DNA of 64,000 nt from Clostridiales bacterium. Its GTDB lineage: Bacteria > Bacillota > Clostridia > Oscillospirales > Butyricicoccaceae. The stretch covers positions 81,077-145,076 of the forward strand of contig JALFIV010000033.1 in the NCBI GenBank assembly GCA_022775385.1, read 5' to 3'. The position numbers and the translations under genes were made by a program. Under the pieces are notes generated by a model. The model was given only the letters and a program-made list of their open reading frames with translations. It searched no databases and had not been told where the DNA came from. This document shows positions 1 through 6,715 of the stretch, in pieces. Each line of letters begins with the position of its first letter. The first letter of the stretch is position 1.

Positions 1-2
1 AC

Positions 3-815
3 GACCAGCATGACCAGCTCGGGATTTTCCCGTTTGCCGTACAGGTTTCTCCCTGTCCGGTAGATTACGGCGAAACCGCATCCGGCAATTATTTTAATCT
101 GCTGAATCAGACCATTACGGATCTGTACGACGGTGTACAGGCTCTTGTCGATCAAAATTCCGCGCAGATTGATCGTTTACAGGAGTTAGGTGGAATTACC
201 GATGTCACGCTGGCGGGAGCGTCAATTGTGTCCGACCTAGTGGCGACAATACCGGAAGCGACCAGTGAGACGGACGGATACATGACAGCGGAGCAAGCCG
301 AGAAACTGTCGAATGCAGTAACAGACATTGCACTTGGCACAAGTGACGCGACGCTTGGAAAAACAGGCAGCGTAGTAACGATACCAGAAGCGACCAGTGA
401 GACGGACGGATTTATGACGACGGATCAAGTGACTAAGGTTGCAAATGCAGTCACCGATATCAAGGTTGACGGCACGGCACTGACCAAAACAAATGGTGCA
501 GTCAATCTTCCGGCGGCTACGGAGTCGAATCCGGGCGTGATGACGGCGGAACAGGTTACCGCGCTGACAACCGCGCAGGCGGACGCGACGGCGGCGCTCG
601 GACAGCTTGTTAAGGTCCATGTACAAGGCACGACCGATATGTACGGCAAGATATCGCTGCCGGACAGCAAGATCTATCCGCTGGCTGCACTGAGCAACAC
701 GTTTGCGATCACCGGTGAGTACAATCTCCGTGTGGTCAATGTGTCGACGGACAGTGCGATACTCGCAAAGAATACCGCGGTTGATTTCTGGATCATCGGT
801 CTAAAGAAAGGGTGA
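3..815 (+). CDS. Phage tail/baseplate-associated fibre-like protein, 5' partial
   Basis: Frame is open from base 3 to the stop at 813-815; repeated IPEATSETDGYMTAEQ-type motifs; directly upstream of holin and endolysin. Confidence 0.6.
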   Translation, partial: DQHDQLGIFPFAVQVSPCPVDYGETASGNYFNLLNQTITDLYDGVQALVDQNSAQIDRLQELGGITDVTLAGASIVSDLVATIPEATSETDGYMTAEQAEKLSNAVTDIALGTSDATLGKTGSVVTIPEATSETDGFMTTDQVTKVANAVTDIKVDGTALTKTNGAVNLPAATESNPGVMTAEQVTALTTAQADATAALGQLVKVHVQGTTDMYGKISLPDSKIYPLAALSNTFAITGEYNLRVVNVSTDSAILAKNTAVDFWIIGLKKG

Positions 816-819
816 TTCG

Positions 820-1158
820 ATGAATTGTGCAGCATTTTTAATCACGTTTGTGTTTATCGTATTTGATTTTTTCAGCGGACTTGTGAAGGCATTTGCAACG
901 AATCATTTTACCAGCACAAAGATGAGGGAAGGTTTATTTCATAAGATCGGACTCGTGTTGTGTGTCGTGCTGGGCTATCTGATTGATTTTGCACAGGTCT
1001 ACTTGAACCTCGGTTTTTCTGTTCCAGTGACCGGCGCGATCTGTACATATATCGTTCTTATGGAAATCAGCTCGATTTTGGAAAACTTATGCGAGATGAA
1101 CCCGAACCTGATGCCGGATAAGCTGACGGAGATTTTCGGAGGCGGTCATCATGAGTAA
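820..1158 (+). CDS. Phage holin family protein
   Basis: Hydrophobic ~112 aa protein (FIVFDFFSGLVKAF..., GLVLCVVLGYLIDF) overlapping the start of an endolysin. Confidence 0.85.
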   Translation: MNCAAFLITFVFIVFDFFSGLVKAFATNHFTSTKMREGLFHKIGLVLCVVLGYLIDFAQVYLNLGFSVPVTGAICTYIVLMEISSILENLCEMNPNLMPDKLTEIFGGGHHE

Positions 1159-2497
1159 GCAGATTTCGGACAACTGTCTCACGCTGGTCAAACGCTGGGA
1201 GGGCTGTGATCTCACGGCGTACCGCGATCCGGTCGGCGTCTGGACGATCGGCTACGGTACGACCGATGCGGACAGGTCCATCACGGGTGTGACCATCAAA
1301 AAGGGACTGAAAATCAGTCAGGAGACGGCGGAAAGCTGGCTCAGGAAGTCGCTTGAGACCAAATATCTGCCGCTCGTGCTCAAGTACGACGACCGGTATC
1401 ACTGGAATCAGAATCAGCTGGATGCACTCGTCTCGTTTGCGTATAACATCGGATCGATCGACCAACTGACCGCAAACGGAACGCGCTCGATCGCGCAGAT
1501 CAGCGCGCACATCACCGCATATAATAAGGCGGGAGGCAGGGTGCTGAACGGTCTGACCAATCGACGCCGCGAGGAAAAAGCATTGTTTGACAGGAAGGTG
1601 AGCACGGTGAGTACGAAGAAATACACTGTCACGTTCCAGACCGAGAGCAAATACAAGGTCGTCAGATACGGCGGCAACTCGGTTTACAACTCCGCCTGCG
1701 GTCCGGCATCGCTGTGCAATGCACTGCGGGCGGCGGGCATCGCGGATGTCGGTCTGCTGACGATGTGTAAGCTCGCGGTGTCCTGCGGCGCAAGGGTGGA
1801 CGGCGGGACGGATATGCAGACGCTCCTCAAGGCGGCGTCGGAAAAGTACGGATTTTCCTTCACCGGCACCTACAAGAACGCCTATCTGCGGAAGCATCTC
1901 AAAGCGGGTGGCACAGCGATCCTGCACGCGGGAAGCGCGTACCAGTTGTTTGCGAACGGCGGACACTTTGTCGCGGCGGTGGGTGCATCCGGTGATGTCA
2001 TTACCGTGCTCGACTCGTATTGGTACGACGGCAAGTACACGAGCACGACGCTCCGCAGGGACAACGTCAAGGTGATCGCCAAGGGCGTCATCCAGACCAG
2101 CCTGATCCAGTGCGGAAAGGCGACGATCGACCGCAATCCGAGCTATTATCTGATCATGCCGAAGCCTAAGACGGCAACGACCACTGCCAAGGTCAACGCC
2201 CGATCCGGCGCGGGCGTGACCAAGCGCAAGCTCGGCACGATCGACAAGGGCGCAACGCTGACGGTGCTGGAGGAGACCAGGAACTGGATCAAAACCGGCG
2301 TCTGGATCGCGAAAAAGCACTGTGAGTTGGAGGATGGCAGGGCGGTGACGCTGGCCAATCTCAACGCCAGAGCGGCCAACAGCATCAAGTCGGACAAGGT
2401 CGGCACGATCCGCAAGGGCGTGACATTGTCCGTGCTGGAGATGACCGAGAATTGGGTTAAGGTGTCCTTTTGGGTCGCGCGGAAGTATACGAAGTAA
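1151..2497 (+). CDS. Multidomain phage endolysin: GH24-type lysozyme + C39-like peptidase domain + two SH3-like repeats
   Basis: KRWEGCDLTAYRDPVGVWTIGYGTT (GH24); ACGPASLCNALRAAG...GHFVAAVG...LDSYW (C39-like); KVNARSGAGVTKRKLGTI and NLNARAANSIKSDKVGTI (SH3-like). Confidence 0.85.
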   Translation: MSKQISDNCLTLVKRWEGCDLTAYRDPVGVWTIGYGTTDADRSITGVTIKKGLKISQETAESWLRKSLETKYLPLVLKYDDRYHWNQNQLDALVSFAYNIGSIDQLTANGTRSIAQISAHITAYNKAGGRVLNGLTNRRREEKALFDRKVSTVSTKKYTVTFQTESKYKVVRYGGNSVYNSACGPASLCNALRAAGIADVGLLTMCKLAVSCGARVDGGTDMQTLLKAASEKYGFSFTGTYKNAYLRKHLKAGGTAILHAGSAYQLFANGGHFVAAVGASGDVITVLDSYWYDGKYTSTTLRRDNVKVIAKGVIQTSLIQCGKATIDRNPSYYLIMPKPKTATTTAKVNARSGAGVTKRKLGTIDKGATLTVLEETRNWIKTGVWIAKKHCELEDGRAVTLANLNARAANSIKSDKVGTIRKGVTLSVLEMTENWVKVSFWVARKYTK

Positions 2498-2510
2498 AAG
2501 ACATGGCAAA

Positions 2511-2550
2511 GCCCCAGAGGACCATTGAATCCTCTGGGGCTGTTTCTTTT
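2511..2550 (+). terminator. Rho-independent terminator after endolysin
   Basis: GCCCCAGAGGA...TCCTCTGGGGC followed by TGTTTCTTTTTC. Confidence 0.85.
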
Positions 2551-2648
2551 TCTATTTATAGAATGGTATATTTCTGGAATCTTTATAGATAAAAAGAGCA
2601 ATATATGGTATATTTAAGGAAAATATCGTCTTAAAGGAGAAATCTAGA

Positions 2649-3506
2649 ATGAGAAAAAGAATCTCTGAATCGAATATATTTCCGCAGTTCGACTTATTTA
2701 CAGAATACCAAAAGATTGAGAGTTTGATTTCTGAAAGACAAATTATTGGACAAATTAATCAATTCGGAAGAAATCTTACTCCCCAATTTACTATTGAGGA
2801 TTATATAGGACAATTGTATTTTAGCGACTGGAATTTACGCGGAACTTTTGTTTCTATAGAGGATATGCGCCAAGGGTTAGGGATCAAAAAAGAGAATTTC
2901 AACGCTGAAATCATTAGTCAGGACATGGTTTTGGATTTTCTTCAATATGCAGCTAATCTATGCAATAGAACTTGTCTGACCATAAATAGATGCAAAGTGG
3001 CATATATTGCAGATAAGAATTATCTTAGTATGCTGATAGAAATTATCACGAAGTTTGTGAAACATTTGGGTGCGGAGATTTCAATAGAGCCGGACGGTTC
3101 TGAAGTTTTTGTTGTCTATAAAAATGAGCTGGGAATTGTAGTTGCCGACGACCATCCGGATATTAAAGATAGCATTGTCGAGTACAAAAAGATTGATAAT
3201 AGGGGGGATTTAACGAGAAAAGGTGAAATACTATGCACTCTTTTTAAAAAGCTAGAGCCAGTTGAGAAAAAACTAAAAAGAACTGAGTATCGGAACCTGT
3301 GCGATGATACTACCTTTTTGTTCAATAGGACAGGTATACGGCATTGTGTTGAAACAGACAGAATTGCCAGTGAAACATTTTTAAAGATGAAACCAGAGGA
3401 ATTAGAAATATGGTATGATAGAACATTTGATATGTTTTTATCGTGTATGGTTATTTCTAAATATTTAGATATTAAAAATGAAATTAAGGATATAAAACGT
3501 ACATAG
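2649..3506 (+). CDS. Hypothetical protein, AT-rich accessory gene
   Basis: 285 aa ORF with AAAGGAG upstream; composition much more AT-rich than its neighbours. Confidence 0.7.
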   Translation: MRKRISESNIFPQFDLFTEYQKIESLISERQIIGQINQFGRNLTPQFTIEDYIGQLYFSDWNLRGTFVSIEDMRQGLGIKKENFNAEIISQDMVLDFLQYAANLCNRTCLTINRCKVAYIADKNYLSMLIEIITKFVKHLGAEISIEPDGSEVFVVYKNELGIVVADDHPDIKDSIVEYKKIDNRGDLTRKGEILCTLFKKLEPVEKKLKRTEYRNLCDDTTFLFNRTGIRHCVETDRIASETFLKMKPEELEIWYDRTFDMFLSCMVISKYLDIKNEIKDIKRT

Positions 3507-3531
3507 TAGGGAATGAGGTGGAATAGCGTGA

Positions 3532-3573
3532 CCGGAAACGGAGCTTGAAATGGCTCTGTTTCCGGATTTTTTG
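3532..3573. terminator. Strong terminator hairpin, probably bidirectional between convergent genes
   Basis: CCGGAAACgGAG...CTCtGTTTCCGG then ATTTTTTG. Confidence 0.75.
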
Positions 3574-3576
3574 TAT

Positions 3577-4415
3577 TCAAGATTTCGGTGCATCGGAGGG
3601 CGGAACAAATTCATAGGCCGCGTGATGGCTGCTCAAATCAAAGACCGGTTTTCCGCGCTCCCACAGCCGAACGCGGATCTCCGCATTGCTGCTTTCACGA
3701 ATCGTGCCGGTCATATTGCCCTTGACAGGGGAGTGAAGCGCAAACCCATCGTGGGAAGGGTGGATATCCACTTCCAGCAGGAGCTTTCCCTGCGACAGGC
3801 AGATGTGGTGCGGACCGGCGCGAGGATGAGGACGCCGCGGTAGGTTGCGAGGCGGTATTCGCGGCCGCCGTACATAACAGCGCAGATGCATCCCTGAAAG
3901 CGGATGACGCAGAACGGGATATGCGCAATCGACACCATAATCGAGCGCGGCTCAGGAAAGCTGTTGCACTGCAGCCAGAGATACGAGCTGGGAAAGGACG
4001 TGCCGCTGTCCGTTTCGATGTATCCGTCGCCGCCGTCGAAACAGTATGGTTTGCCGTGAATGGTCACGCTGCCGCGGAGCGCGTGCGACATACTGATGAC
4101 GCCGTGGCGGCATTCCATCGGGAAGAATCGAAACGGTCCCATGATGTCCGTGTGCAGCGGCGTCAGCGCTCCGTAGGCGATCTCGCCGCTGATACCGGGA
4201 AGGTCGATCCTGCATCCGCGCCGCGAGAACTGACAGTCTCCGGCTCGGATGATTCCGCTGTGTACCGACAGCTCCGGCACGTCAAATTGCTCGGAACCGT
4301 CGGTGGAGATCACCTGAATGAATGCGCCGTGTTCGGTTCGTCCGGGAATGAACGCGGCCATATTCTGATCGTTTTGATGCTTGAAATACCAGCCCTCGAA
4401 GCGATTGTGTTTCAT
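3577..4415 (-). pseudogene. Tocopherol cyclase-like family gene with apparent 1-nt frameshift
   Basis: N-terminal frame 4415->3711 (MKHNRFEGWYFKHQ...); expected C-terminal part (HHICLSQGKLLLEVDI...) continues in the frame of ORF 3577-3891. Confidence 0.65.
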
Positions 4416-4666
4416 GGGACTTCCTCCGGTGTGATTTACTGAGAACAGTATGGACCGGTATCCGTGAAATAATTTGTCCAGGAAAATATATTATTGTTAA
4501 TTCATCTAGACATAATATATTTCATTGACAATATTTTGAATTTGGGATATTCTAAAATAAAGAACAACTGTTCGAATAAATATATTTCAGGTATTCTTTT
4601 ATTTTTTGGTGGATTATGTTATACTTTGTTTAGTATTGCAAGATTTTTCAGAAAGGATACTGTTCC

Positions 4667-5608
4667 ATGTCTAAAAAGGTTTATTTTTATAAAGTAGAAT
4701 TGTTTGATGAATCTAATAATAGAACTGCAAATTATGCTGATATAAAGTCACTTATTTCGCAAATTATTGATAGACATGCCAGTACTTGTTCTGATTTCAA
4801 AGTTGTTGATCTTTCACGTGAGGAACAATTGCACTATTTGGCGGATATTTTTGACTATAATGATAGTTTTCTGTTTATGCGTCTTAGCGCTCAAAAACCC
4901 ACTGGTAGTTATTTGCATCGGAATTACTCCACTAATATTCCTAATGAACTCTTGGAGGGAATTAGTGAGGATCAAGAAGGTATTGAGATTTATACATATG
5001 TATTACTGAATTATCAAACTGGTATTTTGGCATATTTGAGCCAAAAAGGTGCACCAAGTGTATCTGTTTTGAATTATTTTTTTGGAAAATATAATAACAG
5101 TTTTTCACTCAAACTCACTAAAATTCCAAATTCACGTGGTATCGAACTCATTTATAATACTCCCGAATCTCATATTTCTCAGATTGAAATCGAAGTACCA
5201 GTTCCAAGTGCTGATATGTTGCAATCAGTATTTCATTGGGATCAAAATGATATCTTAGATGCACAAACTATGGAAAATCTTAAATTTACAGTTCGACTGT
5301 CTGCTGACAAACGGAAAATGGTTACACAAACAGATCAAGAGACTCAAAGGATTATTGATATTATCAAAGAGAAATTACCTTTTTATCGTAAGGCTAAACT
5401 TCGTGCAAAAGCAAAAAATATTAAAACTCGAGAGTTTAATTTCTTTGAGGATTATTATAATTACCCAGTTGAGATTCCGACCTATAAGACTGTCGATCAT
5501 CATAAAGTTTATTATACTGCAAACGAATTTGTTTCAATATATAGAGATCATTTGCAGATGGCATATTATGAGAGTATAGATATATTAAAAGAAATTACAA
5601 ATCGATAA
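4667..5608 (+). CDS. Uncharacterised accessory protein (possibly DUF6731-like; unverified)
   Basis: 313 aa, AT-rich; AGAAAGGAT SD upstream; paired with downstream membrane gene 15 bp away. Confidence 0.75.
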   Translation: MSKKVYFYKVELFDESNNRTANYADIKSLISQIIDRHASTCSDFKVVDLSREEQLHYLADIFDYNDSFLFMRLSAQKPTGSYLHRNYSTNIPNELLEGISEDQEGIEIYTYVLLNYQTGILAYLSQKGAPSVSVLNYFFGKYNNSFSLKLTKIPNSRGIELIYNTPESHISQIEIEVPVPSADMLQSVFHWDQNDILDAQTMENLKFTVRLSADKRKMVTQTDQETQRIIDIIKEKLPFYRKAKLRAKAKNIKTREFNFFEDYYNYPVEIPTYKTVDHHKVYYTANEFVSIYRDHLQMAYYESIDILKEITNR

Positions 5609-5623
5609 GGAGTAGTATTTTTT

Positions 5624-6223
5624 ATGAAACAGCATATGGTAATTCTTAAAACAATTAAATATGCTGTTGTTTTTGTTGTTTTGGGATGTTTGAATACTCA
5701 TTTTCCATTTATCCCTCTTCCAAAAACTTCGAATGCAGAAGACATATATTCTGTTTTTATTACTGTCAGCACTGTTTTTGCAGGTTTTTCTTTCACCGCA
5801 TTGGGGTTGTTGCTCGGGCTATCTTCGGAAACACTGATTCAAAAAATAAAAAATACTTCAATAATGATAGATAAGGTTCGTCGAATAGTCTATAGTATTG
5901 TATGTTTCATGGTTTCCGCAATTTTGTCATTGATAGAAGTTCTTAAGATTACTGACAATATCATTTTGAATATATCAAATTTAGAATCGAGCTTAGACCA
6001 TGTTATCAATCATATTCAGAATGTTTTATACATGCTTAATATTGGATTTTTAATATGCGGTATTTTTTATTTTTCGATTGCAGTATACGATTTATATCAT
6101 CTTCTAAAGCGCATCTATTCATATAATTCTGCAGAAAGCAAAGCAAGGATTTCTGCTGTTCGGGAAGCGCTTGAACGAAATAAACGCATATTAGAGGATT
6201 TGGATAATGATAATGATGATTAA
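5624..6223 (+). CDS. Predicted four-TM membrane protein, partner of the upstream gene
   Basis: Hydrophobic segments IKYAVVFVVLGCLN, VFITVSTVFAGFSFTALGLLL, IVYSIVCFMVSAILSLI, IGFLICGIFYFSIAV; AAGGAG SD. Confidence 0.75.
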   Translation: MKQHMVILKTIKYAVVFVVLGCLNTHFPFIPLPKTSNAEDIYSVFITVSTVFAGFSFTALGLLLGLSSETLIQKIKNTSIMIDKVRRIVYSIVCFMVSAILSLIEVLKITDNIILNISNLESSLDHVINHIQNVLYMLNIGFLICGIFYFSIAVYDLYHLLKRIYSYNSAESKARISAVREALERNKRILEDLDNDNDD

Positions 6224-6235
6224 TTATGAAACACA

Positions 6236-6266
6236 CCTGCAGAAACATATTCTGCAGGTTGTTTTT
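6236..6266 (+). terminator. Terminator of the two-gene AT-rich island
   Basis: CCTGCAGAA ACATA TTCTGCAGG TTGTTTTT. Confidence 0.8.
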
Positions 6267-6271
6267 ATGTT

Positions 6272-6715
6272 TCTATCCCCCTCCTCGACCGCAAAGACCG
6301 TATGAGTATGTACAGCGGACTCGAAGTCCGTGTTCCGTTCTGTGATCATCGGATTGCGGAATATCTGTATCATGTGCCGTGGCAGTGGAAAGACTTGAAC
6401 GGAGTGGAAAAGGGACTGCTGCGCGAGGCGGTCAGGGGATGGCTGCCGGATGAAGTGCGTCTGCGCAAAAAGAGTCCGTATCCCAAGACACACAATCCGG
6501 CATATCTCGAGGCGGTTTCGGAGCGTCTGCGCGGTCTGCTTGCGGAGGGGAGCTCGCCGATGTTTGATCTGGTGCGCAAGGATCGGCTGGAAAGTCTGCT
6601 GACCGATACCCGCGCACAGCCGTGGTACGGACAGCTGATGACAACCCCGCAGACCATCGCGTATTTTCTGCAGCTGGATTACTGGATGCGCACCTATCAT
6701 GTGCGTGTTCTGTGA
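6272..6715 (+). pseudogene. asnB: Asparagine synthetase (AsnB) C-terminal remnant
   Basis: In-frame PLLDRKDRMSMYSGLEVRVPFCDHRIAEYLYHVPW... matches the AsnB synthetase domain; N-terminal amidotransferase and ATP-binding parts absent. Confidence 0.8.

Follow-up and report, generated by a model that had tools for sequence, protein, structure and literature searches.

RexAB of phage lambda was the first abortive-infection system to be linked to anti-phage defence, and its trigger is still unknown. It combines RexA (PF15969; PDB 8TWQ), a soluble protein of RexA fold, with the four-TM protein RexB (PF15968) encoded 15 nt downstream, both within the prophage's cI operon. RexABpp of P. putida (PP_5643/PP_5644), likewise a prophage-borne two-gene system, was found by remote homology only and pairs a RexA-fold DNA-binding sensor with a four-TM effector (PMC12894663). 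Its activity was tested in that publication, i.e., RexA overproduction inhibits growth only with RexB present, and the uptake of SYTOX Green and propidium iodide goes up. Further temperate-phage pairs with a membrane protein are known from actinobacteriophages, namely CarolAnn gp44/gp43, Sbash gp30/gp31, whose genes have their own promoter (PMC6426606), and Butters gp30/gp31, for which PMC12894663 describes a reversed wiring with the cytosolic protein as effector. In the same 2026 paper, only five RexAB-like systems are counted, all of them in Proteobacteria or Actinobacteria hosts. Two neighbours of this group are relevant as well. RdgC has the fold in common with RexA; it binds DNA, has no membrane partner and does not count among the Rex-type proteins (PMC11077077). 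PDC-M67 (M67A + M67B) is an uncharacterised PADLOC candidate, for which our literature search found no publication naming it.

Here, we compare these systems with two genes, A and B, from a Clostridiales bacterium (Butyricicoccaceae). They lie in a stretch of 64,000 nucleotides, in the following called the window. We read the pair as a divergent cassette of the RexAB type that serves superinfection exclusion (abortive infection) and belongs to a temperate phage, and assign this reading a probability of roughly 0.78. The respective features are, in window coordinates:

1 to 6283: right end of a prophage of 31.9 kb in total (contig C91, about 55441-87360)
1151 to 2497: prophage lysozyme gene
4525 to 4553, plus strand: candidate sigma-70-like promoter, TTGACA-17-TATTCT (10/12; consensus scan only)
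4667 to 5608, plus strand: protein A gene, rexA-like, presumed sensor (ORF, ATG, Shine-Dalgarno)
5624 to 6223, plus strand: protein B gene, rexB-like, presumed membrane effector (ORF, hydropathy, AF2 model, position beside A)
6235 to 6259, plus strand: intrinsic-terminator-like hairpin, 10 bp stem and T tail (terminator scan)
6280 to 6291: right attachment junction attR, exchange within CTCGA[T/C] (comparison of attL, attR and intact asnB)
6284 to 6715, plus strand: 3' part of host asnB, about 140 aa of the AsnB C-terminus (Pfam Asn_synthase)

The architecture of the cassette agrees with what had been proposed for it. Both genes are on the plus strand, separated by a gap of 15 nt, and each has a Shine-Dalgarno sequence, i.e., AGAAAGGA located 9 nt upstream of the ATG of A, and AAGGAG located 11 nt upstream of B. 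The GC content of the island (4440-6270) is 30.5% compared to 54.3% across the window, such that the predicted AT-rich island within GC-rich surroundings is recovered. Protein A has 313 aa and is predicted to be soluble with a two-domain RexA/RdgC fold. Protein B has 199 aa with four hydrophobic helices (hydropathy peaks at residues 5, 46, 88 and 134) and a charged C-terminal tail. A strong terminator-like hairpin closes the cassette within the prophage, before the asnB homology, which restarts at about 6284; terminator-like sites are enriched in the region (3 vs. 0.5 expected from shuffles). The promoter candidate belongs to a scan with 18 such matches vs. 11 expected, as AT-rich DNA yields many of them; if used, it would give the cassette a promoter of its own like that of the Sbash genes.

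The original prediction had placed this cassette beside a prophage and next to a simply truncated asnB. The link to the prophage stands; the position beside it and the simple truncation of asnB do not. The 5' part of asnB is found on contig C91 (54050-55441), 31.9 kb upstream of the 3' part, and ends about 24 bp short of where the gene for a large serine recombinase (515 aa) has its stop codon. Joining the flanks opens the asnB frame again (...FMQTLLDRKDRMSMYSGLEV...), and the joined flanks show 88% identity over 200 bases to the intact asnB of the congener G008, compared to 28% on the prophage side. In five congeners, asnB is still a long reading frame (628-672 codons). Between the two parts of asnB are genes for terminase (TerL), portal, a tape-measure-like protein and lysozyme, as well as (by reading) an XRE-type repressor with a divergent HTH gene. 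Given that the 5' part is found so far upstream and beside a serine integrase, everything between the two parts belongs to one prophage that has inserted into asnB, and the A+B pair is thus inside the prophage. That is, asnB is split by the prophage, and its interpretation as a decayed pseudogene was rejected, since the 5' part is on the same contig and the joined flanks are in frame.

Within this prophage, no cassette follows the A+B pair, and attR is reached after about 60 bp. The genes for integrase, repressor, TerL and portal protein are upstream of the window, and the repressor is near the end opposite to the pair. With regard to the exclusion reading this is a counterpoint, as the window cassette is found next to attR, has a terminator of its own and is not downstream of the repressor, unlike lambda rexAB. 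On the circular phage genome, the pair would adjoin the integrase across attP, like the homologous pair in Acetoanaerobium phage ANDSL2_ph1.

For protein A, an AlphaFold2 model was built on a shallow six-sequence alignment (as for protein B), with pLDDT 77.7 and pTM 0.75. In a Foldseek search of the PDB, the best match of this model is lambda RexA (8twq), with E 2.8e-8 and probability 1.00. Next are Iml3-Chl4 and RdgC, the latter with marginal matches on ranks 4 and 6 (E 3e-3 to 5e-3). Both of these were named as relatives of RexA when its crystal structure was published (PMC11077077). By these matches, the predicted model is assigned the fold expected of a RexA component, i.e., a split globular domain plus a dimerisation domain. 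At 10% identity, its superposition with RexA reaches a TM-score of only 0.30, which may be explained by the large rearrangement that the two domains of RexA must undergo to bind DNA according to Adams et al. (PMC11077077). Independently of the model, we compared the A profile with lambda RexA using hhalign. The match covers 214 columns, is collinear over most of the length, and scores 31.5 vs. a maximum of 20.6 in 150 shuffles; among 115 proteins, lambda RexA ranks first. The homologue of A in genome G390 shows a sub-threshold match to Pfam RexA (17 bits vs. cut-off 25), and a sequence-profile search of solved structures gave no match for A. Taken by predicted fold and by profile, these comparisons identify protein A as RexA-like.

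For protein B, the likeness to RexB is fainter. Hydropathy and the all-helical AF2 model (pLDDT 73.8) both provide the four TM segments of a Rex membrane partner. Lambda RexB ranks first among 10 multi-TM proteins when compared to the B profile and is above all 150 shuffles, where the match itself is weak and short (single-comparison E 0.006, 50 columns). Better agreement is found for the B homologue of locus L025, which matches PADLOC's RexB model with E 3.1e-6. The only match in a profile search of solved structures, a designed helical protein, is irrelevant and was discarded. Searching BFVD with the B model yields a weak best E-value of 0.15; here, the A model (second match) and the B model (with its weak E-value) both match proteins of the same phage, ctylc9.

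A small membrane protein encoded in a two-gene operon could also belong to an ordinary toxin-antitoxin or holin-like lysis pair without relation to Rex, and one B homologue indeed shows a marginal match to Pfam Phage_holin_5_2 (E 0.05). We hold this explanation to be the least credible of those considered here, as separate lysin genes are kept in the inspected prophage loci with the pair located outside the lysis cassette, protein A is predicted to have a RexA fold, and an antitoxin of 313 aa would be large.

Compared directly, the window pair and lambda RexAB share about 10-15% identity, which is below family thresholds, and the window proteins are longer (A by 34 residues compared to RexA, B by 55 compared to RexB). 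Neither protein passes the Rex models of Pfam or PADLOC, nor are A and B of the window assigned to any family in Pfam, PADLOC, PHROGs or NCBIfam; matches to Cac1_C, DsbD_2 and Translin were below the cut-off at chance level and were rejected. Likewise, searching the genomes of the family with Pfam RexA (PF15969) and RexB (PF15968) gave nothing above the cut-off and no match in the window's own genome (G000). Other members of the family do match the models of PDC-M67, i.e., the A homologue of L025 matches PDC-M67A (6.6e-5) and B of L014 matches PDC-M67B (1.3e-5). For the window itself, B matches M67B weakly (E 0.31) and A shows no match to M67A. We thus see, at the level of sequence models, an apparent link to or overlap with PDC-M67.

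Next, we consider the distribution of the family. A single-sequence search with protein A in 149 related genomes identified one further homologue (27% identity). Profile searches with A found 6/291 genomes of the class and 5/399 of the phylum, where both counts include the window's genome, the latter also includes two partial hits that were rejected, and all frequencies are rough since the genome samples are drawn subsets. The rejected phylum-level hits (L022/L026 and L023/L027) are short and partial, lie in housekeeping regions and lack a B partner, and were considered chance. A profile search with protein B brought two further loci with both genes as well as an orphan B without A, while the weak hits L071-L074 were dismissed as chance matches, two of them within much longer reading frames. 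Scanning the genome contigs with back-translated peptides found no homologue, since the A/B family is too divergent for such scans.

Altogether, 12 distinct A loci are known (the window, L003 from ANDSL2_ph1, L012, L013, L014, L015, L016, L017, L024, L025, L068 and L070). A homologue of B adjoins A in all of them (12/12), directly downstream on the same strand in 11/12 and convergent in L068 (606-1995), where the pair is beside an ImmA-like gene (by reading). Judged by neighbouring genes, the surroundings are phage, prophage or phage-like for 9/12 loci. Four of the loci (L012, L014, L015, L024) were independently recovered as IMG/VR viral contigs, and the pair is carried by the IMG/VR contigs L011 and L028-L032. 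In ANDSL2_ph1, whose host belongs to the Clostridia (Bacillota) and whose metagenomic relative is L011, the pair is beside the integrase. In L025 (7638-16599), the pair is part of a defence island, namely HsdM-HsdS-HsdR (type I restriction), the RexAB-like pair and then ApeA. In L016, the neighbours are a C5 cytosine methylase and an SNF2 helicase, with ZorD- and DISARM-like PADLOC matches. Adjacency in 12/12 loci along with mobile and defence neighbourhoods means that the suspected defence or abortive-infection pair stands on both points where it could have failed, i.e., co-conservation and location in accessory regions; the RexA-like predicted fold and profile of A point in the same direction.

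The mostly phage-borne occurrence would also suit a pair that works mainly for its own phage, in the choice between lysis and lysogeny or in some other function of lysogeny, and that affects other phages little. According to PMC11077077, lambda RexA is able to bias the bistable switch without RexB. The placement of the pair between HsdMSR and ApeA (L025) or beside methylase and helicase (L016) speaks against such a role, as does its distance from the repressor in the window prophage, and we regard it as very improbable.

If the window pair is a RexAB-type exclusion cassette, it might work as follows. Protein A probably dimerises and clamps DNA, as its fold suggests. It would wait in the lysogen until being switched on by a replication or recombination intermediate of another phage or by a phage protein, a step that is transferred from lambda, CarolAnn and P. 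putida. Activated A would turn on B, a RexB-like four-helix membrane protein, which may oligomerise into a channel or otherwise damage the membrane. The infected cell would halt growth, leaving the incoming phage with little or no progeny. The parallel to RexABpp within this scheme is drawn from its published description. A point against the scheme is that CarolAnn gp44 and gp43 are not recovered by the profiles of the A/B family.

The same gene layout is compatible with reversed roles as in mycobacteriophage Butters, i.e., A would be the toxic antiviral effector and B would hold it inactive until infection. Since Butters gp30/gp31 is a described case (PMC12894663 and PMC7542560) and homology cannot distinguish the two wirings, this assignment keeps some weight. 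We nevertheless consider it unlikely, as the membrane protein is the effector in three described Rex-like systems besides lambda according to PMC12894663. In L017, A is frameshifted and B is intact; B being the restrainer of A would allow this as well, and the locus is therefore not decisive.

Concerning novelty, the pair was originally labelled uncharacterised. This applies to the family, which is new to Pfam, but not to its kind, as RexAB is classic. The novelty lies in the family itself, which is divergent, spans Bacillota-type genomes and is not recognised by current models, and in its apparent link to PDC-M67. Its placement in Bacillota follows from the host of ANDSL2_ph1 and from gene content. 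If the exclusion reading is true, temperate phages of Bacillota would repeatedly carry RexAB-type exclusion as cargo too, in roughly 1-2% of the sampled genomes, and it would have been missed because the sequences fall below current models. The divergent pairs would then help to find the conserved surfaces of RexA and RexB and would open the trigger question to tests in new hosts. More tentatively, the family could be a large unnamed RexAB-type immunity branch in Bacillota phages and defence islands that unites lambda RexAB and PDC-M67 as one superfamily. NA37/NdpA may then be a third component in some loci, since the gene of the 37-kD nucleoid-associated protein NA37 adjoins the pair in two unrelated loci (L017 10368-11357, L024 10527-11540). 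We think of this extension as possible rather than probable.

Finally, some observations concern the insertion site and the remaining prophage. asnB is split at the same point by different foreign DNA in 3/12 genomes of the genus (L048, L049, L058, L059), including the congeners G007 and G009, where an apparent integrase gene end follows the 5' part (by reading). Given these congeners, asnB seems to serve repeatedly as an attachment site within the genus. In G009, a gene for an RNA 2'-phosphotransferase-like protein (KptA-type, by reading; L049 1532-2197 of the reverse complement) is found upstream of the asnB junction, i.e., where the window has the RexAB-like pair. Near the integrase, the 31.9-kb prophage encodes a nucleotidyltransferase-HEPN-like fusion (224 aa, L057 4585-5259, minus strand) and an exonuclease/BRCT-like protein (568 aa, L057 5367-7073, minus strand), both by reading, which are possible further conflict genes. 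Just 3' of the prophage lysozyme gene is an AT-rich orphan gene of 285 aa (window 2649-3506, plus strand, about 34% GC) without family match, possibly a second lysogenic cargo gene. Also within the right end of the prophage, a tocopherol-cyclase-like gene of 234 aa with host-like GC content (window 3711-4415, minus strand) has congener relatives (L036-L038) with 42-48% identity, aligned only up to residue 198.
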